DNA of 64,000 nt from Liolophura sinensis (taxonomy: Eukaryota; Mollusca; Polyplacophora; Chitonida; Chitonidae): positions 1,490,501-1,554,500 of the forward strand of contig NC_088295.1 in assembly GCF_032854445.1 (NCBI RefSeq). The letters run 5' to 3'. Below are positions 18,032 to 64,000 of this stretch, in pieces. Within the stretch, counting starts at the first letter, position 1; every line of letters starts with the position of its first letter. The translations under genes were made by a program, and so were the position numbers. The notes beneath the pieces are model-generated. The model was not told the DNA's origin. It was given only the letters and a program-made list of their open reading frames with translations, and made no database searches.

Positions 18032-21000
18032 CTGTGGCTGGGAACGGGCACTCCTGAACATACAAACCCAGAATGTGGCAAAATGTCTGAATTAAGTAAA
18101 CATAGAACACAAAATGTCGGAATGAAAACAAAATGCTGGAAAGAAAAAAAAATGTCGGAATGAAGACAGAACACCAAATGCCGGAATGAACGCGTTATAC
18201 CACACAAGAAAAGGTTACCTGTTGACGCAGAAGGTCCATGGTGGCGGCTAAGGCGTGCTGCAGGAAGAGACGCTTGGAGATCATAATACACTCGGCACCA
18301 TTGCTCACCAGACTGAGGCTGGGCTGTTCTCCGTACACCAGGTTACTCACCCCCTGTACGAGAGCAAGTGGTCTGACATTGTCCATTCATCGGATAGACA
18401 TCTTTAAATTATAGACTGATGTTGTGTTTTGTACAATACAGTTACATTATTAAGCCGATAGCCTGTCTAATGACGAAATACGCAGGTGACAGTTCTACAG
18501 GAAGGAACACATCACACTCCACTTTTAAAACTAAAACTCTCATGATACCCAAAAATGTTCGTCAAGACTTTGTCCTATATATACTGAAATTTGGACAAAT
18601 GTAAAAGTGCAGCTTAGAATGACCCGTCCCATCAAGTAATGTCCCCAGATAATCGTGTATAAAGCCTTCAAACTTACAAAGTACTGTCCCCAGATAATCG
18701 TGTATAAAGCCTTCAAACTTACAATGTACTGTCCCCAGATAATCGTGTATAAAGCCTTTAAACTTACAAAGTACTGTCCCCAGATAATCGTGTATAAAGC
18801 CTTCAAACTTACAAAGTACTGTCCCCAGATAATCGTGTATAAAGCCTTCAAACTTACAAAGTACTGTCCCCAGATAATCGTGTATAAAGCCTTCAAACTT
18901 ACAAGGTACTGTCCCCCAGATAATCGTGTATAAAGCCTTCAAACTTACAAAGTACTGTCCCCAGATAATCGTGTATAAAGCCTTCAAACTTACAAAGTAC
19001 TGTCCCCCAGATAATCGTGTATAAAGCCTTCAAACTTACAAAGTACTGTCCCCAGATAATCGTGTATAAAGCCTTCAAACTTACAATGTACTGTCCCCAG
19101 ATAATCGTGTATAAAGCCTTCAAACTTACAAAGTACTGTATTTACTCGATCTGGCGGGAGATTTGCTCGATCTGGCGAGAAAGTAGCTTGATCCCGCGGG
19201 AGATCAGCAATCTTCAGTATATTACACAGGAAGGATTTAGTGTTATACTGAAGGGGACTGTGACTATATGAGTTAAAAAATCACTCCTCTTGCATTAAAA
19301 TAAACCTACAGATTACGGTTAGGTAGAAATTTCAGCGCATATACCTGTCGTAATATTTTTTAAATTGCTTAAGACAGTTCACCATCTATAGCCGCTTCAA
19401 CAAGCTTCCCAGAGTTACTCCCCCTGAAAGTCTCTCTCGCAAATGGTATTGCTGATTCTGAAGGAATATTTAATGATTTGACTGTATATATGTGAATAAA
19501 TGGATTTCCCTGTTTAGTGTTCGAACTGAAAAACAAATCTTCGGATCTTCTATTACGGTGTTCTTGCCGCTTTACTGAAATAAGTCGTAAGACTTGAGTT
19601 TTCCTCCAAGAGTTATCTCAGAACAATACAGGCTGGTAATGCATTTGGTAATTAACTAGAACATTAAATTAATAATTGGAGAATTGAGAGTAAATCCATA
19701 TTTCTGGAATGGTGTCTCCAAATACTTGAGGTAAATATCGGTCTCATAGGCTAGCAAAATATAAAAGTTTTTACCTTGGAGTCGATAGAGATTAACTGGC
19801 TGTATAAACGCCTCTAACCTTACAAAGTACTGTCCCCAGATAATTGCTGTACAAACGCCTCTAAACTTACAGAGTACTGCCCCCCCCCCCCCCCAGATAT
19901 CTGTGTATAAACGCCTCTAAACTAACAAAGTACTGTACCCCAGGTAATTGCTGTACAAACGCCTCTAAACTTACAGAGTACTGCCCTCCCCCAGATATTC
20001 ATGTATAAACGCCTCTAAACTAACAAAGTACTGTCCCCCCAGATAATTCCTGTACAAACCCCTCTAAACTTACAGAGTACTGCCCCCCCCCCCCCCCAGA
20101 TATCTGTGTATAAACGCCTCTAAACTAACAAAGTACTGTACCCCCAGGTAATTGCTGTACAAACGCCTCTAAACTTACAGAGTACTGCCCCCCTACCAGA
20201 TATCTGTGTATAAACGCCTCTGAACTTACAAAGTACTGTCCCCCCAGATAATCGTGTATAAACACCCCTAAAGTTACAAAATACAGCCCCCTCAAGATAA
20301 TCTTGTATAAACGCCTCTAACCTTACAAAGAACTGCCCCCCAGTCAATCTCTGTATAAACGCCTCTAAGCTTACAAAGTACTGCCCCCAGATAATCCCTG
20401 TACAAACGCCTCTAAGCTTACAGTACTGCCCCTCCCCCCGGAGATAATGGTATATAAACGCCCTAAACTTACAAAGTACAATCCCCCTCCAGATAATCTT
20501 GTATAAACGCCTCTAAACTTACAAGCACTGCCCCCAGGCAATCCCTGTATAAAGGCCTCTAAGCTTACAAGTACTGCCCCCCAGATAATCCCTGTATAAA
20601 CGCCTCTAAGCTTACAAAGTACTGCCCCCCCAATTATCGTGTATACACGCCTCTAAACTTACAAAGTACTGCCCCCTCCAGATAATCCCTGTATAACCTC
20701 CTCTAAACTTACAAGTACTTTCTCCCCCCCCATAATCGTGTATAAAGGCCTCTAAACTCACAAAGTACTGCCCCCCCCCAAATTAATCTCTGTATAAACA
20801 CCTCTAAACTTACAAAGTACTGCCCCCCTCCAGATAATCCCTGTATAACCTCCTCTAAACTTACAAAGTACTTTCTACCCCCCCCCCCCATAATCGTGTA
20901 TAAAGGCCTCTAAACTCACAAAGTACTGCCCCCCCCAAATTAATCTCTGTATAAACACCTCTAAACTTACAAAGTATTGCCCCCCCTCCAGATAATCCCA

Positions 21001-24000
21001 GTATAACCTCCTCTAAACTTACAAAGTACTGTTCCCCCCGATAATCGTGTATAAACGCCTCTAAACTAACAAAGTATTGTCCCCTCCCCTGATAATTGTG
21101 TATAAACACCTCTAAACTTACAAAGTACTGTCCCCCCCAATTCATCTCTGTATAAACACCTCTCAACTTACAAAGTACTGCCCCCCTCCAGATAATCCCT
21201 GTATAACCTCCCCTAAACTTACAAAGTACTGTCCACGCTCCAGTACCTGGACCTCAATGAACATGGGATGAAGATCAGCTGCCGTCTGCTCTGTGTACTT
21301 CTGTCCAGCTTTACTGTCTAGCTCGTCAGCCATCGTCTTCCGGTTAGCTAGACTCCTCTCCAAAACCCTTTTCTCATCTGTGGTCGAACAGAACTACGAT
21401 CATAATAAAAAATTTCCCAATTTCTTGTAAAAACTAAAAACTTAAAGTACACCATTTTCGTTCGTAACAAAACAACACCGATTTTAACAGTCTATTATAT
21501 ACTAGACCTAGACATACCTTCTGTCTTTTTTCTCAGTTCTTCCATGGCATTCTTCTTCACTTCCGCTCGAGATAACTTTCTTTTTGATGGTGACATCGAC
21601 AAGTATGCACCCTTAAAAAGGAATTTACCTGGTTAGTTCACCTGGTTAGTAAAACAGGTTAAGTAAGCTCCATTTTACCTTGTTAGTTCATCACTGTAAA
21701 ACAGGTTATATAAGCTAAGTGAGTAAACAGCTATCTGTGGACAGACTATTGCCGCTGAGCACAGTACAAGTTGTCATTCTGGTACTGTAACCATCATCAT
21801 GGAGGTTTAACTCATTTGCTGATTCTTGCTTTTCTATGTTTAACTTATGGCCAATAATATATCGGTCAAAATGGGTAAAAAGTTGAATGTTCTGATGTGG
21901 AAAACAGGTATACGAAAAAAACAAAACAAGTGTGTTCGGATATTCAGGGATACTTGAGTATTTTCCCTAATGATAAGAAAACTAAATGTAGAATGAACTT
22001 CTCGCGATCGATGCTCTCGTACAAAACCTCATCATTATCTTCTTGGCGTTCAGTTCTCTGGAGAACTATTATCTATCAGATTATATGAGTACTTGGTATT
22101 AAGTTTCCAGCTAGTTTGTGAGCTATGGTGCCCAGATGTTAATAAATCCATACTGTAGGAGATTATAAATACGCACCTTTGAATTTTTCCGTACCGCCGG
22201 ACCACCCTCCGTTTCACCATCCTCAGCTTTTGTCGCTGATATCGTGGATATATCAGGCAGGATCACCCTCTCCGGCTCCGGGACACTCGAGGTGACGCTC
22301 TCCACCACCCGGGCTCTGTAATCCTGAATAATGGCCTCGTAGTCCAGGATTCCCATCCTCTCCGCCTCTGTGCGGTACCCAGGCAAAGACTCCACCTGAT
22401 GGACAGAGCTTACACAGTCACCTAATTGTTTATGTAGTTATTTACTTATTTGGTGTTTTACGCTGTATCCAGGAATATTTCATTTATATGAAAGGGGCAA
22501 GCATTATGATGGAAGGAAACCAGGCATAGCCCGGAGGAAACCCACGACCATTCGCAGGCTGTTGAGAGACCTTCTCAAATACGATCGGAGAGGGAGACAG
22601 CATGAGTTGTACTTGAACCCATTGCGGCCACATTGGTGAAAGGCTCCTGAGTCACCTAATCTTGTTACATACAGTGGGATTCCATATCACCTCACTAGTT
22701 CAATCAATATAAGCAGGCCCGGCATTAGTGTTTTCTTCAAATCTATGCACGGATCGTATATCGTGAATAAAACCACTGACTTTTCCCTATTTACTTATAT
22801 TTGATATCCCCATAACACGGTACGTTTGTATACAGAGTGTAGATACAACCTACGTCATTCAGTATGTAAGATCATGATTAGCAGTATGGCTTAGTTCTCT
22901 ACCGTCAAACATGGAGAAAATGAGCGACCTCCATGGACCCAGGTGACTTTCACCAATACGGTCGCTCTGAGTTCAAGTCCAGCTCATGCTGGCTTCCTCT
23001 CCGGCCTTACTCTGCTCGGTTTCCTCCAACCAAAATGATGGCCGCCGTCGTATAAGTGAAATATTCTTGAATGCAGAGTAAACACAAATCAAATAAATAA
23101 ATAAAATAAACATGGAGAAAACAAATGTCCAAAACATATGATGATAAAGCGAACAAACCAATCCTCACCAGTCGCTTTTCCATCTCTGTGTAATCTTTGA
23201 ACGTTTCCTTTTCTTCTGATGCTCTGTCGACAAAACTTGCCTCTGGTTTTCTCCCATGAAAGTCTGTCACTTTCAGGTTACGCAGACAACAAGGGGACTC
23301 GATGTTTGGTCTGTTAGCGGCTTCGCACGTCTCAATGGCTGAGGGACAAAACGATATCCAGATCTTTAACACGGCTGAGGAACAAAACGATATTCAGATC
23401 TTTAACACGGCCGAGGACAAAACGATATTCAGGATCTTTAACACGGCTGAGGGACAAAACAATATTCAGATCTTTAACACGACTGAGGGACAAAACGATA
23501 TTCAGATCTTCAACATGGCCGAGGGACAAAACGATATTCAGATCTTTAACATGGCTGAGGAACTAAACTGTACTCCGATCATGACACGCCTGAGGGACAA
23601 AAGAACATTTAAATCCCAACATGGCTGAAGAACAAAACGATATTCAGATACAACATGGCTGAGGAACAAAAGGACATTCAGATCATGGCTGAGGGACAAA
23701 ACGATATTCAGATCTTGACACACCTAAAAGAACATACAGATCCTAACATGAATGTGGAAAATGGCAGCCTGAACGCGTAAATCATATCGGAGGTGGCTTA
23801 AACTATTTCCACAGACATGCAATTGCATCTGCGTTACACATTCGTTACAGTGTATCTATGGCCCATGCCTACCTGCACCGTCAATCCACCCCAACAATAA
23901 ATCCTGGTCTGATGTGCTAAAAATGGACAGGATCCATTCGCTCTGCGTTAAGCGTTCGTTAAAGAATTGTGCGGGATCCGTAGAAAAACTTCAGCTGACC

Positions 24001-27000
24001 TATTCACGTAAATTTCATTCTCAGATAAGCAATCGCAAGTGTAATCGTATGTCCGTTGAAACACAGCATTATACTTACCTGTATCCAAATCTTCTGTCCT
24101 CCCGTCAGTTTTGGTCGCACCTCCTCAGTTTCTTCAGTACTGACACGCTCCCCTATAGAATAAATGACCATAGCTTAACCCACACTTCGGCAATGTTGCA
24201 GCCATATCGAGGCGACGCTCTCCTATAGAATAAATGACCATAGCTTAACCACACTTCGGCAATGTTGCAGCCATATCGTGGCGACGCTCTCCTATAGAAT
24301 AAATGACCATAGCTTAACCACACTTCGGCAATGTTGCAGCCATATCGAGGCGACGCTCTCCTATAGAATAAATGACCATAGCTTAACTCCACTTCGGCAA
24401 TGTTGCAGCCATATCGAGGCGACGCTCTCCTATAGAATAAATGACCATAGCTTAACTCTACTTCGGCAATGTTGCAGCCATGTCATGGCGACGTTCTCCT
24501 AAAGAATGAATAAACGTGGCTTAACCCCTACCCTCTCCCCACTTCGGCAATGTTGCAGCCATATCGTGGCGACAGGGTACGGTGACTTTGTAATAATCAA
24601 TCGAATAGTTTGTTACAATAATTACTCGTCTGATTGCAGATTCTATGTTTTGTTTGGTATCAAGTAAAGATGCAGCTCATTTCGGTACATACATGACAAA
24701 ATGAGGTCATTAAACACCCAGCACTTAAAGATGATCGTGTACCTTGTATAATGCAAATAATAAGTGTACACAGCAAAGAGTGTGTTTCACTGCAGAATTG
24801 CAGGCTAATTCATTAGATTTCACATTTGCTATATATTCTGAAACAGGTGTCACAGGTTCACTATATGTTCAAGTGAGTCATTTAGATGTTATTATATCGT
24901 ATAATGCAGAACTTTCAGTGGACGCACAGAAACAACCACCTCTGGGAACCTCAATCTCAGGTAAAGTAGTGCCGTTTGGAAATTTCTTCCCTCGTGAACT
25001 TCGTACAGAATATGCTTGATTTCTGGGTTAAAATGTGCCAAAAGCTGGAAGTATTGTTACATGGGTCTGCTGATACAGATCTTTAGCAGGGTTACAACTC
25101 GGATGATTGTGCTGATACAGATCTTTGGTAAGTTTACAACTCGGATGATTGTACTGATACAGATCTTTGGCAGGTTTACAACTCGGATGATTGTGCTGAT
25201 ACAGATCTTTGGCAGGTTTACAACTCGGATGATTGTGCTGATACAGATTTTTGGTAGGTTAACAACTCGGATGATTGTACTGATACAGATCTTTGGCAGG
25301 TTTACAACTCGGATGATTGTACTGATACAGATCTTTGGTAGGTTTACAACTCGGATGATTGTACTGATACAGATCTTTGGCAGGTTTACAACTCGGATGA
25401 TTGTACTGATACAGATCTTTGGTAGGTTTACAACTCGGATGATTGTACTGATACAGATCTTTGGCAGGTTTACAACTCGGATGATTGTACTGATACAGAT
25501 CTTTGGCAGGTTAACAACTCGGATGATTGTACTGATACAGATCTTTGGTAGGTTTACAACTCGGATGATTGTGCTGATACAGATCTTTGGTGGGTTTACA
25601 ACTCGGATGATTGTACTGATACAGATCTTTGGTAGGTTTACAACTCGGATGATTGTACTGATACAGATCTTTGGCAGGTTTACAACTCGGATGATTGTAC
25701 TGATACAGATCTTTGGTAGGTTTACAACTCGGATGATTGTACTGATACAGATCTTTGGCAGGTTTACAACTCGGATGATTGTGCTGATACAGATTTTTGG
25801 TAGGTTAACAACTCGGATGATTGTACTGATACAGATCTTTGGCAGGTTTACAACTCGGATGATTGTACTGATACAGATCTTTGGTAGGTTTACAACTCGG
25901 ATGATTGTACTGATACAGATCTTTGGCAGGTTTACAACTCGGATGATTGTACTGATACAGATCTTTGGTAGGTTTACAACTCGGATGATTGTACTGATAC
26001 AGATCTTTGGCAGGTTTACAACTCGGATGATTGTACTGATACAGATCTTTGGCAGGTTAACAACTCGGATGATTGTACTGATACAGATCTTTGGTAGGTT
26101 TACAACTCGGATGATTGTGCTGATACAGATCTTTGGTAGGTTTACAACTCGGATGATTGTACTGATACAGATCTTTGGCAGGTTTACAACTCGGATGATT
26201 GTGCTGATACAGATCTTTGGTAGGTTTACAACTCGGATGATTGTACTGATACAGATCTTTGGCAGGTTTACAACTCGGATGATTGTGCTGATACGGATCT
26301 TTGGTAGGTTTACAACTCGGATGATTGTGCTGATACAGATCTTTGGCAGGTTTACAATTCGGATGATTGTACTGATACAGATCTTTGGCAGGTTTACAAC
26401 TCGGATGATTGTACTGATACAGATCTTTGGTAGGTTTACAACTCGGATGATTGTACTGATACAGATCTTTGGCAGGTTTACAACTCGGATGATTGTGCTG
26501 ATACAGATCTTTGGCAGGTTTACAACTCGGATGATTGTGCTGATACAGATCTTTGGCGGGTTAACAACTCGTATGATTGTGCTGATACAGATCTTTGGCA
26601 GGTTTACAACTCGGATGATTGTACTGATACAGATCTTTGGCAGGTTTACAACTCGGATGATTGTGGATCCAGTGTATTCTAAACGTGAGGATTAGGTTTG
26701 AGTTGTAGGCTTAAAGGTAATTGCAATTCTGACTTAATGAGAACAGTCCGGCTCGTCTGGCTTCGTCTCGCTGAATGCTTCGTACAATTGATGATAACAC
26801 GTGACTGTTTACATACATGAATATTCAGTTATAAGATGTACCAAATGCCTACCGATTTTACGATGAAAATCCAGTCCGAACAGTTGCTGTCCCTGGCTAG
26901 TATCTGGCCTCGACTGAAACAGATAGTCAGATAAACATGTAAGCCTACATACAACAGACATATAGACATGCATGTAAGCCTACATACAACAGATAGTCAG

Positions 27001-54227: not shown

Positions 54228-54530
54228 AAGAAGACACTGGGCTGGACTGATGCTGACCTCTACAACAAGTGGCTACAAGGATATGGACAGACACTCGGCT
54301 GGACTGATGCTGACCTCTACAACATGTGGCTACAAGGATATGGACAGACACTCGGCTGGACTGATGCTGACCTCTACAACATGTGGCTACAAGGATATGG
54401 ACAGACACTCAGCTGGACTGATGCTGACCTCTACAACATGTGGCTACAAGGATTTGGGCAGACACTCGGCTGGACTGATGCTGACCACTACAACAAGTGG
54501 CTACAAGGATGTGGACAGACACTCGGTGAA
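54228..54530. repeat. 57-bp minisatellite, about 5 copies
   Basis: The unit is ggctggactgatgctgacct then ctacaacatgtggctacaag gatatggacagacactc. Confidence 0.94.
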
Positions 54531-57500
54531 CTGACCATGTGCTCACGCAAATGCTGTGTGTGAACTGACCTTGTGCTAAGGCAAATGCAGTGTGTGAACT
54601 GACCTTGTGCTCAGGCAAATGCTGTGTGTGAACTGACCTTGTGCTCAAAAGCACATTGTGTGTGAATTGACCTTTCGCTCAATCAAATGCTGTGCGTGAA
54701 CTGACCTTGTGCTCAGGCAAATGCTGTGTGTCAACTGACCTTGTGCTCACGCAAATGCTGTGTGTGAACTGACATTGTGCTCACGCAAATGCTGTGTGTG
54801 AACTGACCTTGTGCTCAGGCAAATGCTGTGTGTGAACTGACCTTGTGCTCACGCAAATGCTGTGCGTGAACTGACCTTGTGCTCAGGCAAATGCTGTGAG
54901 TGAACTGACCATGTGCTCACGCAAATGCTGTCCGTGAACTGACTTTGTGCTCAGGCAAATGCTGTGTGTGAACTGACCTTGTGCTAAGACAAATGCTGTG
55001 CGTGAACTGACCTTGTGCTAAGGCAAATGCTGTGAGTGAACTGACCTTGTACTCACGCAAATGCTGTCGGTGAACTGACTTTGTGCTAAGGCAAATGATG
55101 TGAGTGAACTGACCTTGTGCTCACGCAAATGCTGTGTGTGAACTGACCTTGTGCTCACGCAAATGCTGTGTGTGAACTGACCTTGTGCTCAGGCAAATGC
55201 AGTGTGTGAACTGACCTTGTGCTAAGGCAAATGCTGTGAGTGAACTGACCTTGTGCTCAGGCAAATGCTGTGTGTGAACTGATCTTGTGCTCAGGCAAAT
55301 GCTGTGTGTGAACTGACCTTGTGCTCAGGCAAATGCTGTGAGTGAACTGACCTTGTGCTCAGGCAAATGCAGTGTGTGAACTGACCTTGTGCTCACATAA
55401 ATGCTGTGTGTGAACTGTCCTTGTGTTCACGTAAATGCTGTGAGTGAACTGACCTTGTGCTAAGGCAAATGCTGTGAGTGAACTGACCTTGTGCTCAGGC
55501 AAATGCTGTCAGTGAACTGACCTTGTGCTCACGTAAATGCTGTGTGTGAACTGACCTTGTGCTCAGGCAAATGCTGTGTGTGAACTGACCTTGTGTTCAC
55601 GTAAATGCTGTGGGTGAACTGACCTTGTGCTCACATAAATGCTGTCAGTAAACTGACCTTGTGCTAAGGCAAATGCTGTGTGTGAACTGATCTTGTGCTC
55701 AGGCAAATGCTGTGTGTGAACTGACCTTGTGCTCAGGCAAATGCTGTGAGTGAACTGATCTTGTGCTCAGGCAAATGCAGTGTGTGAACTGACCTTGTGC
55801 TCACGTAAATGCTGTGCGTGAACTGTCCTTGTGTTCACGTAAATGCTGTGAGTGAACTGACCTTGTGCTAAGGCAAATGCTGTGAGTGAACTGACCTTGT
55901 GCTCAGGCAAATGCAGTGTGTGAACTGACCTTGTGCTAAGACAAATGCTGTGAGTGAACTGACCTTGTGCTAAGGCAAATGCTGTCAGTGAACTGACCTT
56001 GTGCTCACGTAAATGCTGTGTGTGAACTGACCTTGTGCTCAGGCAAATGCTGTGTGTGAACTGACCTTGTGTTCACGTAAATGCTGTGGGTGAACTGACC
56101 TTGTGCTCACATAAATGCTGTCAGTGAACTGACCTTGTGCTAAGGCAAATGCTGTGTGTGAACTGATCTTGTGCTCAGGCAAATGCTGTGTGTGAACTGA
56201 CCTTGTGCTCAGGCAAATGCTGTGAGTGAACTGATCTTGTGCTCAGGCAAATGCAGTGTGTGAACTGACCTTGTGCTCACGTAAATGCTGTGCGTGAACT
56301 GTCCTTGTGTTCACGTAAATGCTGTGAGTGAACTGACCTTGTGCTAAGGCAAATGCTGTGAGTGAACTGACCTTCTGCTCAGGCAAATGCAGTGTGTGAA
56401 CTGACCTTGTGCTAAGACAAATGCTGTGAGTGAACTGACCTTGTGCTCAGGCAAATGCTGTCAGTGAACTGACCTTGTGCTCACGTAAATGCTGTCAGTG
56501 AACTGACCTTGTGCTAAGGCAAATGCTGTGAGTGAACTGACCTTGTGCTCAGGCAAATGCAGTGTGTGAACTGACCTTGTGCTAAGGCAAATGCTGTGAG
56601 TGAACTGACCTTGTGTTCACGTAAATGCTGTGAGTGAACTGACCTTGTGCTAAGGCAAATGCTGTGAGTGAACTGACCTTGTGCTCAGGCAAATGCTGTG
56701 AGTGAACTGACCTTGTGCTCACGCAAATGCAGTGTGTGAACTGACCTTGTGCTAAGTCAAATGATGTGAGTGAATTGACCTTGTGCTCACGCAAATGCTG
56801 TGAGTGAACTGACCTTGTGTTCACGTAAATGCTGTCAGTGAACTGACCTTGTGCTAAGGCAAATGCAGTGTGTGAACTGACCTTGTGCTAAGGCAAATGA
56901 TGTGCATGAACTGACCTTGTGTTCACGTAAATGCTGTGTGTGAACTGACCTTGTGCTAAGGCAAATAATGTGCATGATCTGACCTTGTGCTCACGTAAAT
57001 GCTGTGTGTGAACTGACCTTGTGCTCACGCAAATGCTGTGAGTGAACTGACCTTGTGCTCACGCAAATGCTGTGAGTGAACTGACCTTGTGTTCACGTAA
57101 ATGCTGTCAGTGAACTGACCTTGTGCTAAGGCAAATGCAGTGTGTGAACTGACCTTGTGCTCACGTAAATGCTGTGTGTGAACTGACCTTGTGCTAAGGC
57201 AAATGCTGTGAGTGAACTGACCTTGTGCTCACGCAAATGCTGTGAGTGAACTGACATTGTGCTCACGCAAATGCTGTGAGTGAACTGACCTTGTGCTCAC
57301 GCAAATGCTGTGAGTGAACTGACCTTGTGTTCACGTAAATGCTGTCAGTGAACTGACCTTGTGCTAAGGCAAATGCAGTGTGTGAACTGACCTTGTGCTC
57401 ACGTAAATGCTGTGTGTGAACTGACCTTGTGCTAAGGCAAATGCTGTGAGTGAACTGACCTTGTGCTCACGCAAATGCTGTGAGTGAACTGACCTTGTGT

Positions 57501-60500
57501 TCACGTAAATGCTGTCAGTGAACTGACCTTGTGCTAAGGCAAATGCATTGTGTGAACTGACCTTGTGCTAAGGCAAATGATGTGCATGAACTGACCTTGT
57601 GCTCATGTAAATGCTGTGTGTGAACTGACCTTGTGCTCAGGCAAATGCTGTGAATGAACTGATCTTGTGCTCAGGCAAATGCTGTGCGTGAACTGACCTT
57701 GTGTTCATGTAAATGCTGTGTGTGAACTGACCTTGTGCTAAGGCAAATGATGTGCATGATCTGACCTTGTGCTCACGTAAATGTTGTGTGTGAACTGACC
57801 TTGTGCTCAGGCAAATGCTGTGAGTGAACTGACCTTGTGCTCACGCAAATGCTGTGAGTGAACTGACCTTGTGTTCACGTAAATGCTGTCAGTGAACTGA
57901 CCTTGTGCTAAGGCAAATGCAGTGTGTGAACTGACCTTGTGCTCACGTAAATGCTGTGTGTGAACTGACCTTGTGCTAAGGCAAATGCAGTGTGTGAACT
58001 GACCTTGTGCTCACATAAATGCTGTGTGTGAACTGTCCTTGTGTTCACGTAAATGCTGTGAGTGAACTGACCTTGTGCTAAGGCAAATGCTGTGAGTGAA
58101 CTGACCTTCTGCTCAGGCAAATGCTGTCAGTGAACTGACCTTGTGCTCACGTAAATGCTGTGTGTGAACTGACCTTGTGCTCAGGCAAATGCTGTGTGTG
58201 AACTGACCTTGTGTTCACGTAAATGCTGTGGGTGAACTGACCTTGTGCTCACATAAATGCTGTCAGTGAACTGACCTTGTGCTCAGGCAAATGCTGTGTG
58301 TGAACTGATCTTGTGCTCAGGCAAATGCTGTGTGTGAACTGACCTTGTGCTCAGGCAAATGCTGTGAGTGAACTGATCTTGTGCTCAGGCAAATGCAGTG
58401 TGTGAACTGACCTTGTGCTCACGTAAATGCTGTGCGTGAACTGTCCTTGTGTTCACGTAAATGCTGTGAGTGAACTGACCTTGTGCTAAGGCAAATGCTG
58501 TGAGTGAACTGACCTTGTGCTCAGGCAAATGCAGTGTGTGAACTGACCTTGTGCTAAGACAAATGCTGTGAGTGAACTGACCTTGTGCTCAGGCAAATGC
58601 TGTCAGTGAACTGACCTTGTGCTCACATAAATGCTGTGTGTGAACTGACCTTGTGCTCAGGCAAATGCTGTGTGTGAACTGACCTTGTGTTCACGTAAAT
58701 GCTGTGGGTGAACTGACCTTGTGCTCACATAAATGCTGTCAGTGAACTGACCTTGTGCTAAGGCAAATGCTGTGTGTGAACTGATCTTGTGCTCAGGCAA
58801 ATGCTGTGTGTGAACTGACCTTGTGCTCAGGCAAATGCTGTGAGTGAACTGATCTTGTGCTCAGGCAAATGCAGTGTGTGAACTGACCTTGTGCTCACGT
58901 AAATGCTGTGCGTGAACTGTCCTTGTGTTCACGTAAATGCTGTGAGTGAACTGACCTTGTGCTAAGGCAAATGCTGTGAGTGAACTGACCTTCTGCTCAG
59001 GCAAATGCAGTGTGTGAACTGACCTTGTGCTAAGACAAATGCTGTGAGTGAACTGACCTTGTGCTCAGGCAAATGCTGTCAGTGAACTGACCTTGTGCTC
59101 ACGTAAATGCTGTCAGTGAACTGACCTTGTGCTAAGGCAAATGCTGTGAGTGAACTGACCTTGTGCTCAGGCAAATGCAGTGTGTGAACTGACCTTGTGC
59201 TAAGGCAAATGCTGTGAGTGAACTGACCTTGTGTTCACGTAAATGCTGTGAGTGAACTGACCTTGTGCTAAGGCAAATGCTGTGAGTGAACTGACCTTGT
59301 GCTCAGGCAAATGCTGTGAGTGAACTGACCTTGTGCTCACGCAAATGCAGTGTGTGAACTGACCTTGTGCTAAGTCAAATGATGTGAGTGAATTGACCTT
59401 GTGCTCACGCAAATGCTGTGAGTGAACTGACCTTGTGTTCACGTAAATGCTGTCAGTGAACTGACCTTGTGCTAAGGCAAATGCAGTGTGTGAACTGACC
59501 TTGTGCTAAGGCAAATGATGTGCATGAACTGACCTTGTGTTCACGTAAATGCTGTGTGTGAACTGACCTTGTGCTAAGGCAAATAATGTGCATGATCTGA
59601 CCTTGTGCTCACGTAAATGCTGTGTGTGAACTGACCTTGTGCTCATGCAAATGCTGTGAGTGAACTGACCTTGTGCTCACGCAAATGCTGTGAGTGAACT
59701 GACCTTGTGTTCACGTAAATGCTGTCAGTGAACTGACGTTGTGCTAAGGCAAATGCAGTGTGTGAACTGACCTTGTGCTCACGTAAATGCTGTGTGTGAA
59801 CTGACCTTGTGCTAAGGCAAATGCTGTGAGTGAACTGACCTTGTGCTCACGCAAATGCTGTGAGTGAACTGACATTGTGCTCACGCAAATGCTGTGAGTG
59901 AACTGACCTTGTGCTCACGCAAATGCTGTGAGTGAACTGACCTTGTGTTCACGTAAATGCTGTCAGTGAACTGACCTTGTGCTAAGGCAAATGCAGTGTG
60001 TGAACTGACCTTGTGCTCACGTAAATGCTGTGTGTGAACTGACCTTGTGCTAAGGCAAATGCTGTGAGTGAACTGACCTTGTGCTCACGCAAATGCTGTG
60101 AGTGAACTGACCTTGTGTTCACGTAAATGCTGTCAGTGAACTGACCTTGTGCTAAGGCAAATGCATTGTGTGAACTGACCTTGTGCTAAGGCAAATGATG
60201 TGCATGAACTGACCTTGTGCTCACGTAAATGCTGTGTGTGAACTGACCTTGTGCTCAGGCAAATGCTGTGAATGAACTGATCTTGTGCTCAGGCAAATGC
60301 TGTGCGTGAACTGACCTTGTGTTCATGTAAATGCTGTGTGTGAACTGACCTTGTGCTAAGGCAAATGATGTGCATGATCTGACCTTGTGCTCACGTAAAT
60401 GCTGTGTGTGAACTGACCTTGTGCTCAGGCAAATGCTGTGAGTGAACTGACCTTGTGCTCACGCAAATGCTGTGAGTGAACTGACCTTGTGTTCACGTAA

Positions 60501-63500
60501 ATGCTGTCAGTGAACTGACCTTGTGCTAAGGCAAATGCAGTGTGTGAACTGACCTTGTGCTCACGTAAATGCTGTGTGTGAACTGACCTTGTGCTAAGGC
60601 AAATGCTGTGAGTGAACTGACCTTGTGCTCAGGCAAATGCAGTGTGTGAACTGACCTTGTGCTCAGGCAAATGCTGTGTGTGAACTGACCTTGTGTTCAC
60701 GTAAATGCTGTGTGTGAACTGACCTTGTGCTCAGGGAAATGCAGTGTGTGAACTGACCTTGTGCTAAGGCAAATGATGTGCATGAACTGACCTTGTGCTC
60801 AGGCAAATGCTGTGTGCGGACTGACCTTGTGCTAAGGCCAATTCTGTGTGCGGACTGACCTTGTGCTCAGGCACATGCTGTCTGCTGTGTGTGAACTGAC
60901 CTTGTGCTCAGGCAAATGCTGTCTGTGAACTGACCTTGTGTTCAGGCAAATGCTGTGTGTGAACTCACCTTGTGCTCAGACAAATGTTGTGTGTGAACTG
61001 ACCTTGCACTAAGGCAAATGCTGTGTGTGAACTGACCTTGTGCTCACGCAAATGCTGTCTGTGAACTGACTTTGTGCTCAGGCAAATGCAGTGTGTGAAC
61101 TGATTTTGCACTCAGGGAAATGTTGTGTGTGAACTGACCTTGTGCTAAGGCAAATGATATGTATGAACTGACCTTGTGCTAAGGCAAATGCAGTGTGTGA
61201 ACTGACCTTGTGCTAAGGCAAATGCAGTGTGTGAACTGACCTTGTGCTCAGGCAAATGCTATGCGTGAACTGACCTTGTGCCAAGGCAAATGCTGTGAGT
61301 GAACTGACCTTGTGCTAAGGCAAATGATGTGCATGAACTGACCTTGTGCTCAGGCAAATGCTGTGTGTGAACTGACCTTGTGCTAAGGCAAATGATGTGC
61401 ATGAACTGACCTTGTGCTAAGGCAAATGCAGTGTGTGAACTGACGTTGTGCTCACGCAAATGCTGTGTGTGAACTGACCTTGTGCTAAGGCAAATGCTGT
61501 GAGTGAACTGACCTTGTGCTAAGGCAAATGATATGTATGAACTGACCTTGTGCTAAGGTAAATGCAGTGTGTGAACTGACCTTGTGCTAAGGCAAATGCA
61601 GTGTGTGAACTGACCTTGTGCTCAGGCAAATGCTATGCGTGAACTGACCTTGTGCTAAGGCAAATGCTGTGAGTGAACTGACCTTGTGCTAAGGCAAATG
61701 ATGTGCATGAACTGACCTTGTGCTCAGGCAAATGCTGTGTGTGAACTGACCTTGTGCTAAGGCAAATGATGTGCATGAACTGACCTTGTGCTAAGGCAAA
61801 TGCAGTGTGTGAACTGACGTTGTGCTCACGCAAATGCTGTGTGTGAACTGACCTTGTGCTAAGGCAAATGCTGTGAGTGAACTGACCTTGTGCTCACGCA
61901 AATGCTGTGCGTGAACTGACCTTGTGCTAAGGCAAATGCAGTGTGTGAACTGACCTTGTGCTAAGGCAAATGCTGTGAGTGAACTTACCTTGTGCTAAGG
62001 CAAATGCTGTGTGTGAACTGACCTTGTGCTCATGTAAATGCTGTGAGTGAACTGACCTTGTGCTAAGGCCAATTCTGTGTGCGGACTGACCTTGTGCTCA
62101 GGCAAATGCTGTGTGCGGACTGACCTTGTGCTAAGGCCAATTCTGTGTGCGGACTGACCTTGTGCTCAGGCAAATGCTGTCTGTGAACTGACCCTGCACT
62201 AAGGCAAATGCAGTGTGTGAACTGACCTTGTGCTCAGGCAAATGCTGTACGTGAACTGACCTTGTGCTCAGGCAAATGCTGTGTGCGGACTGACCTTGTG
62301 CTAAGGGCAATTCTGTGTGCGGACTGACCTTGTGCTCAGGCAAATGCTGTCTGTGAACTGACCCTGCACTAAGGCAAATGCAGTGTGTGAACTGACCTTG
62401 TGCTCAGGCAAATGCTGTACGTGAACTGACCTTGTCCTCAGGCAAATGCTGTGTGTGAACTGACATTGTGTTCAGACAAATGTTGTGTGTGAACTGACCT
62501 TGCACTCAGGCAAATGTTGTGCGTGAATTGACTTTGTGCTCAGACAAATATTGTGTGTAAACTGACCTTGTGCTCAGACAAATGTTGTGTGTGAACTGAC
62601 CTTGTGCTCAGACAAATGTTGTGTGTGAATTGACCTTGTACTCAGGGGCATGTTGTGTGTGAATTGACCTTGTGCTCAGACAAATGTTGTGTGTGAACTG
62701 ACCTTGTGCTCACGCAAATGCTGTGAGTGAACTGACCTTGTGCTCACGCAAATGCTGTCCGTGAACTGATCTTGTGCTCAGGCAAATTCAGTGTGTGAAC
62801 TGACCTTGTGCTCACGCAAATGCTGTGTGTGAATTGACCTTGTGCTAAGGCAAATGCTGTGCGTGAACTGACCTTGTGCTCAGGGAAATGCTGTCTGTGA
62901 AATGACCTTGTGCTCAGGCAAATGCTGTGCGTGAACTGACCTTGTGCCCAGGCAAATGCTGCCCGTGAACTGACCTAGTGCTCAGGCAAATGCTGTGTGT
63001 GAACTGACCTTGTGCTGAGGCCAATTCTGTGTGTGAAATGACCTTGTGCTCAGGCAAATGCTGTGAGTGAACTGACTTTGTGCTCAGGCAAATGCTGTGT
63101 GTGAAATGACCTTGTGCTCAGGCAAATGCTGTCCGTGAACTGACCTTGTGCTAAGGCAAATGCTGTGTGTGAACTGACCTTGTGCTCAGGCAAATGCTGT
63201 CCGTGAACTTACCTTGTGCTCAGGCAAATGCTGTGTGCGGACTGACCTTGTGCTAAGGCAAATGCTGTGTGTGAACTGACCTTGTGCTCAGGCAAATGCT
63301 GTCTTTGAACTGACCTTGTGCTAAGGCAAATGCTGTGTGTGAACTGACCTTGTGCTCAGGGAAATGCTGTCTGTGAACTGACCTTGTGCTCAGGCAAATG
63401 CTGTGTGTGAACTGACCTTGTGCTCAGGCAAATGCTGTGTGCGGACTGACCTTGTGCTAAGGCACATGCTGTCTGCTGTGGGTGAACTGACCTTGTGCTC

Positions 63501-64000
63501 AGGCAAATGCTGTCTGTGAACTGACCTTGTGCTTAGGCAAATGCTGTGTGTGAACTCACCTTGTGCTCAGACAAATGTTGTGTGTGAACTGACCCTGCAC
63601 TAAGGCAAATGCTGTGTGTGAACTGACCTTGTGCTCAGGCAAATGCTGTCTGTGAACTGACCTTGTGCTCAGGCAAATGCAGTGTGTGAACTGATCTTGC
63701 ACTCAGGGAAATGTTGTGTGTGAACTGACCTTGCACTGAGGCAAATGTTGTGTGTGAATTGACTTTGTGCTCAGACAAATGCTGTGTGTAAACTGACCTT
63801 GTGCTCAGACAAATGTTGTGTGTGAACTGACCTTGTGCTCAGACAAATGTTGTGTGTGAATTGACCTTGTACTCAGGGGCATGTTGTGTGTGAACTGACC
63901 TTGTGCTCAGACAAATGTTGTGTGCGAACTGACCTTGTGCTCAGACAAATGTTGTGTGTGAACTGACCTTGGACTTAGAACTGACCTTGTACACAGGCAC
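54530..64000. repeat. 34-bp satellite-like array, about 280 copies, continues past the window
   Basis: The unit is aactgaccttgtgctcaggc then aaatgctgtgtgtg. Position-specific variants (ctcacg/ctaagg/ctcagg; gctgtgagtg/gcagtgtgtg) are arranged in blocks. A 77-unit block (2,618 bp) near 55.4 kb recurs near 58.0 kb, and an 11-unit block (374 bp) at 61259 recurs at 61633. After about 62.4 kb the array shifts to cagacaaatgttgtgtgtg variants. It is the longest single array here. Confidence 0.96.

Follow-up and report, generated by a model that had tools for sequence, protein, structure and literature searches.

Choice among equal 5′ splice sites is usually studied with constructs that carry few sites. 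The human IFI6 gene (6-16, G1P3) reportedly contains a minisatellite with multiple splice donors, an observation credited to Turri, Cuin and Porter in 1995. Two downstream repeat units of IFI6 are reported as used donors in a citing sentence (PMC4526556). In amphioxus, minisatellite-like duplications of intron-exon boundaries known as mirages occur at both 5′ and 3′ boundaries, often with AG/GT signals, are unstable in length and do not interfere with regular splicing (PMC3087553). The mirage cases are Adh3, troponin C and the globins BflGb6 and BflGb9 (PMC3087553, PMC3902484), and repeats in PGBD5 have been likened to mirages with Adh and troponin C cited (PMC3902484). Human segmental duplications contain internal tandem repeats at exon-intron boundaries, with units of about 30 nt on average (PMC2812944). 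We analysed a window of 64,000 nucleotides from the mollusc Liolophura sinensis (assembly GCF_032854445.1, contig NC_088295.1, positions 1,490,501 to 1,554,500 of the forward strand), in which the end of a coding exon and its donor open a minisatellite that presents 40 donor copies, and which is very probably of the mirage type. The original prediction, made from the letters of this DNA, knew of no named class for such an array and was mistaken in this, since mirages are one (PMC3087553, PMC3902484).

The host gene lies on the minus strand. Its upstream exon ends at 21223 (...GGACAGTACTTT/GTAAGT, with the slash marking the junction) and the next exon starts at 18353. In window coordinates, all on the minus strand, the features are the following.

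21223 to 21377: coding exon that seeds the array (exon 19 of the original prediction), ending ...EVQVLERGQYF; read from an open frame and from homology of the joined product to the cNMP-binding domains of cGMP-dependent kinases.
21223 to 21243: exon-derived section of the seed, well supported over 12 nt and reaching as many as 21 nt with one gap; from alignments.
21217 to 21222: authentic donor GTAAGT, copy 1 of 40; from sequence and joined-product homology.
19800 to 21243: array 1, 29 donor copies spaced 46-56 nt apart, with a run of 4 or more G in the 25 nt preceding each of its 28 decoys; from Tandem Repeats Finder (TRF) and copy-by-copy reading.
19140 to 19799: spacer separating arrays 1 and 2, in which no unit copies were seen on reading the sequence.
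18634 to 19139: array 2, 11 donor copies spaced 45-46 nt apart, more homogeneous (97%); from TRF and copy-by-copy reading.
18219 to 18353: next coding exon (GVSNLVYGEQPSLSLVSNGAECIMIS...), with its acceptor AG at 18355-18354; from an open frame, homology and a first residue that is the same in two paralogous exons.

The joined product EVQVLERGQYF/GVSNLVYGEQPSLSL has cGMP-dependent protein kinase matches that span the join (best E 1.2e-6), and this joined-protein homology supports both the exon end at 21223 and the acceptor at 18354. A Pfam search with the joined exons gave no match, and a sub-threshold cNMP_binding match (Pfam E 0.0022) was seen only in a separate exon near 31.5 kb. The name CNBD2 is a provisional label from the original prediction.

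Read copy by copy, array 1 contains 29 donors at positions 21222 to 19823, starting with the real exon end, and array 2 contains 11 at 19129 to 18677, so that the predicted coordinates and counts were correct. TRF reports array 1 at 19889-21234 (period ~51, 27 copies, 75% matches) and array 2 at 18634-19139 (period 45, 11.2 copies, 97% matches). All 40 donors have GT, 33 have GTAAG, as anticipated for most units, and 27 have GTAAGT, the remaining hexamers being GTAAGC (4), GTTAGT (4), GTAAGG (2), GTGAGT (2) and GTAACT (1). Directly adjoining the donor, the exon end agrees with unit 1 in 11 of 12 nt when aligned ungapped and in 18 of 21 columns when one gap is allowed, and the alignment score of the last 45 exon nt against unit 1 was reached by none of 5000 dinucleotide shuffles. 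This bears out the proposal that the exon end and its donor form the first unit of the intron minisatellite. A homology extending more than 21 nt upstream was rejected. Although the in-frame peptide of that region looked suggestive, the match is not significant: in sets of 20000 trials its score was reached 4954 times with dinucleotide shuffles, 5239 times with simple shuffles and 7158 times at random window positions. Because the match between unit and exon is not significant past 21 nt, the seed would consist of 12-21 nt of exon and about 30-40 nt of intron. In the 609 Mb assembly, a search with a composite of two units, made with a tool that skips common words, yielded 20 matches, all inside the window. 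Among the units of array 1, the last full one resembles the array 2 unit most, which fits a derivation of array 2 from that end.

A paralog (L004) has the upstream exon VQVLEKGEYF followed by a single donor, GAGTACTTC/GTAAGTTTG, and its intron lies at the same codon position and in the same phase as that of the window gene. The paralogous intron measures 306 nt and has no array, the sole TRF repeat of the locus falling outside it. Two paralogous exons, in L004 and in a second paralog (L005), begin with the same residue as the downstream exon of the window gene; the upstream exon of the second paralog was found neither in its locus nor in a further 10 kb (L007). Because the first paralog has the intron at the same position and phase, the intron predates the split of the paralogs, and it departs from the Rogers model, where tandem duplication creates a new intron. 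Since the paralog has this intron with one donor and lacks an array, we infer that the one-donor state came first and that the array is a later addition, the window array having probably grown from the exon edge. The exon codons GQYF, present in the copied part, fall in the conserved domain indicated by the joined-protein homology. Together with the single-donor paralog that lacks an array, they lend good support to the predicted growth by tandem duplication across the exon edge.

We infer a mechanism in which the end of the coding exon and the start of the following, already old intron (about 51 nt in total) would have been duplicated in tandem. Slippage or unequal exchange may then have amplified the unit to 29 copies, and a related 45-nt variant may have formed the second, more homogeneous block of 11 copies downstream. 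The coding exon would have been left untouched, because all copies fall 3′ of the real donor. The basis for considering the array a mirage-type minisatellite is the repeat, the exon homology, the single-donor intron of the paralog and the same architecture in other genes of the genome. Like the amphioxus mirages, the window array has a tandem unit that spans the exon-intron boundary (the 11 of 12 nt and 18 of 21 columns given above) and many units with splice signals (GT in 40 of 40, GTAAG in 33 of 40), and the genome holds such arrays at both 5′ and 3′ boundaries, with seven named donor and three named acceptor cases. It differs in copy number, the window gene having 40 copies and a diacylglycerol kinase (DGK)-like gene about 100 against 3 and 6 units in two BflGb6 haplotypes, and in its host, a mollusc whose arrays are described from sequence. 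The window array resembles IFI6 in that minisatellite units offer alternative donors at an exon end, but the downstream donors of IFI6 are reported to be used whereas the window decoys are predicted donors only. The human repeats in segmental duplications are likewise minisatellite units, some of them at exon edges; they lengthen exons or introns and may create introns, whereas the window intron is old and common to the paralog. The window array belongs to a known kind, and neither a mollusc host nor genome-wide recurrence was found reported in the literature covered; no mollusc mirage was found in the open-licence literature searched. Mirages, reported in cephalochordates, are extended to a mollusc, where they offer material for modelling how exons lengthen and introns are gained.

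To place the array in the context of the genome, the whole assembly was scanned for CAGGTAAGT occurring three times with gaps of 20-50 nt, with the reversed motif as a control; the arrays described are a sample of the genome drawn from the matches listed. There were 301 CAGGTAAGT triples against 158 for the reversed motif, with at least 15 distinct arrays among the matches listed. The motif AAGGTAAGT gave 119 triples against 71 reversed, with at least 19 arrays among the matches listed, two of them named, and an acceptor motif gave 370 against 120. Among the matches listed, sequence was retrieved for 15 of 15 CAGGTAAGT arrays (their 5′ ends), 19 of 19 AAGGTAAGT and 14 of 14 reversed-motif arrays and for 16 of 19 acceptor-motif loci, the three left out being additional loci of one repeated family near C2 17.9 Mb. 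Pfam was searched with 9 of the 15 CAGGTAAGT, 11 of the 19 AAGGTAAGT, 7 of the 14 control and 10 of the 16 acceptor arrays, several others being without a usable open edge frame. The first donors of L015, L016, L021 and L044 were placed by hand after automatic edge finding. The motif scans revealed at least ten further named genes with an array seeded at an exon boundary, which is a donor in seven of them and an acceptor in three.

POLR3A-like (L012): donor-seeded CAGGTAAGT array, PDB match with E 5.9e-8.
GH31 (L014): donor-seeded CAGGTAAGT array, E 1.5e-12.
SMAD MH2 (L021): donor-seeded CAGGTAAGT array, E 7.6e-11.
DGK (L044, the 5′ end of the L022 array): donor-seeded CAGGTAAGT array, E 3.5e-10.
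MED12 (L076): donor-seeded AAGGTAAGT array, E 2.1e-7.
KIDINS220-like ankyrin (L070): donor-seeded AAGGTAAGT array, E 1.5e-23, the Pfam ankyrin match alone being below the cut-off.
AGXT-like (L056): reversed-motif control array, seeded by a different donor, E 6.2e-5.
YjeF_N/NAXE (L037): array ending at an exon start (acceptor), database match.
AIG1 (L040): array ending at an exon start (acceptor), database match.
Cyclin H (L039): array ending at an exon start (acceptor), database match.

Four of the 15 CAGGTAAGT arrays listed are thus at named exon ends, one is weak (L015), two have a long open frame only (L016, L020) and eight showed no exon at the 5′ end. L015 looks like an array at an exon end, but its deoC match (NCBIfam E 0.0058) is below the cut-off and there is no PDB match; L016 and L020 have the same look and no database match, and all three stay unconfirmed and uncounted. 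Weak matches to DUF1030 (L067, 0.0048), CATSPERG_C (L034, 0.021) and DNA_pol_A_exoN (control L045, 0.026) were taken as chance. Three of the 16 acceptor loci examined end at a named exon start, and among the 14 reversed-motif arrays in the matches listed, seven of which were searched, the AGXT-like case is the one that is donor-seeded. On the exon side, POLR3A has 31 of 32 nt identical between units 1 and 2 and DGK has 36 of 37, but SMAD only 5 nt. In 6 of the 11 donor arrays compared, a set that includes the window array and the three unconfirmed ones, the distance between the first two donors is not divisible by 3.

The DGK array, at about 23271050-23275690 of G000:C3, is a stronger case than the window array. 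Its 44-nt units carry CTCAG/GTAAGT-type donors head-to-tail behind a DGK-like exon; 65 CAGGTAAGT copies in L022 and 19 in L044, with a 51-nt overlap, make at least 83, and around 20 more are listed below the array, giving roughly 100 in all. Genes matching POLR3A, MED12, SMAD and DGK provide a natural series of 3 to about 100 near-identical donors, and numerous decoys in these four arrays read CAG/GTAAGT or AAG/GTAAGT. We give even chances to the broader proposal that arrays seeded at exon boundaries have been born repeatedly throughout the genome of this mollusc and form a class, in which between 3 and about 100 tandem consensus donors follow ordinary exons of conserved genes. If it is true, the choice of 5′ splice site tolerates almost unlimited equal competitors downstream of the first, a strong rule of first-site use or exon definition.

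A 36-nt array was also seen in the window itself at 23337-23716 on the minus strand; it ends ...TCCCTCAG/CCATTGAGACG and is followed by an open frame, IETCEAANRP...MEKRL, that has no Pfam match. It is possibly an acceptor-seeded array in the window gene.

The dozens of donors that the original prediction saw as competing in the window array are putative competitors. The real donor has a predicted U1 pairing of -5.4 kcal/mol, which 28 of the 39 decoys equal or beat by 0.1 kcal/mol, donor 2 tying with donor 1. Upon in-silico splicing to the next exon (taken as 18353-18221, 2 nt short of its end at 18219, with the frame result unaffected), only donors 1 and 2 keep the frame open through that exon, donor 2, at 21172, adding 51 nt or 17 residues (VSLGEVIQGLSGGGQYF), and donors 3-40 all run into one shared TGA, 19 codons beyond the end of the exon. 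Because donors 3-40 would all give a premature stop, a gene still encoding a normal domain likely uses donor 1 or 2. G-runs, as sites for hnRNP H/F, can silence a donor from the exon side and support one from the intron side. Measuring the longest G-run in positions -25 to -1 gives 2 for the real donor and 4 or more for 38 of the 39 decoys, the exception being the first copy of array 2. The first donor would be favoured in this setting, the G-run just upstream of nearly every decoy lowering decoy use. Splicing most likely still occurs at the first donor with the array behaving as intron, and the array itself is most likely neutral.

Decoys might instead be used as in IFI6, giving either isoforms (17 in-frame residues from donor 2) or, from donors 3-40, unproductive transcripts that tune expression. 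The tie of donors 1 and 2 in predicted U1 pairing with the frame left open, the convergence of 38 donors on one early stop and the human precedent (citing sentence in PMC4526556) speak for such a role, but there is just one productive alternative donor, nearly all decoys have a G-run of at least 4 directly upstream and normal splicing is reported for amphioxus mirages (PMC3087553, PMC3902484), and we regard it as rather unlikely. An intronic minisatellite unrelated to the exon, matching its end by chance or having supplied that end, might be entertained in a window of which 48% is tandem repeat; it is very improbable indeed, being already contradicted by the shuffles, none of which reached the alignment score, by the position of the copied GQYF codons in a conserved domain and by a paralog that has similar codons and a donor with no array. 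It could also be that splice boundaries are hot spots of array birth through an active mechanism tied to transcription or splicing, a view favoured by the 14 CAGGTAAGT arrays against 6 reversed-motif arrays on C1 and C2 and by the excess of acceptor-motif (370 against 120) and AAGGTAAGT (119 against 71) triples over their reversed controls. For CAGGTAAGT, the only motif for which singles were counted, the ratio of triples (301:158) is close to that of singles (9807:4854), though arrays inflate the singles, and this gives no sign of donors as special birthplaces; one reversed-motif control array is moreover itself donor-seeded. We consider a hot spot quite improbable. Arrays arise across a repeat-rich genome, which seems to tolerate the ones at exon ends.

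Several points weigh against a mirage-type origin with splicing kept at the first donor. The polarity rests on one paralog, the second being uninformative, and the exon homology is weak past 12 nt and undetectable past 21 nt. The G-run argument draws on general knowledge of hnRNP H/F, and the runs could be a by-product of unit drift. By unit column, the donor hexamer has a mean conservation of 0.93 against 0.94 for the next 17 columns, with the middle columns 24-33 clearly lower; as the hexamer is as conserved as the columns that follow it and more so than the unit middle, the pattern speaks neither for nor against selection on the decoy donors.

Other repeats were seen in the window. At 25070-26664 a 42-nt unit is repeated 38 times, and both strands carry long frames, of 565 and 544 codons, that stay open over the whole repeat, probably just because 3 divides its period. 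The last 9.4 kb, at 54526-63971, are filled by a 34-nt minisatellite with about 277 copies. Elsewhere in the assembly, contig G000:C99 (L023-L026) matches COX1 seven times at intervals of about 15.5 kb. It thus holds the mitochondrial genome in tandem copies, which are most likely an assembly artefact. The mitochondrial gene order marks the host as a mollusc and not a lancelet. In the map of the mitochondrial genome, where protein genes were placed by eye, tRNAs by ARAGORN and the rRNA and atp genes only from gaps, the tRNA blocks are KARNI and MCYWQGE, and cox3-nad3-nad2-cox1-cox2 lie on the opposite strand to ...nad1-nad6-cob-nad4L-nad4-nad5. This arrangement matches that described for Katharina and, for the protein genes, Octopus (PMC5162086, PMC7003433).

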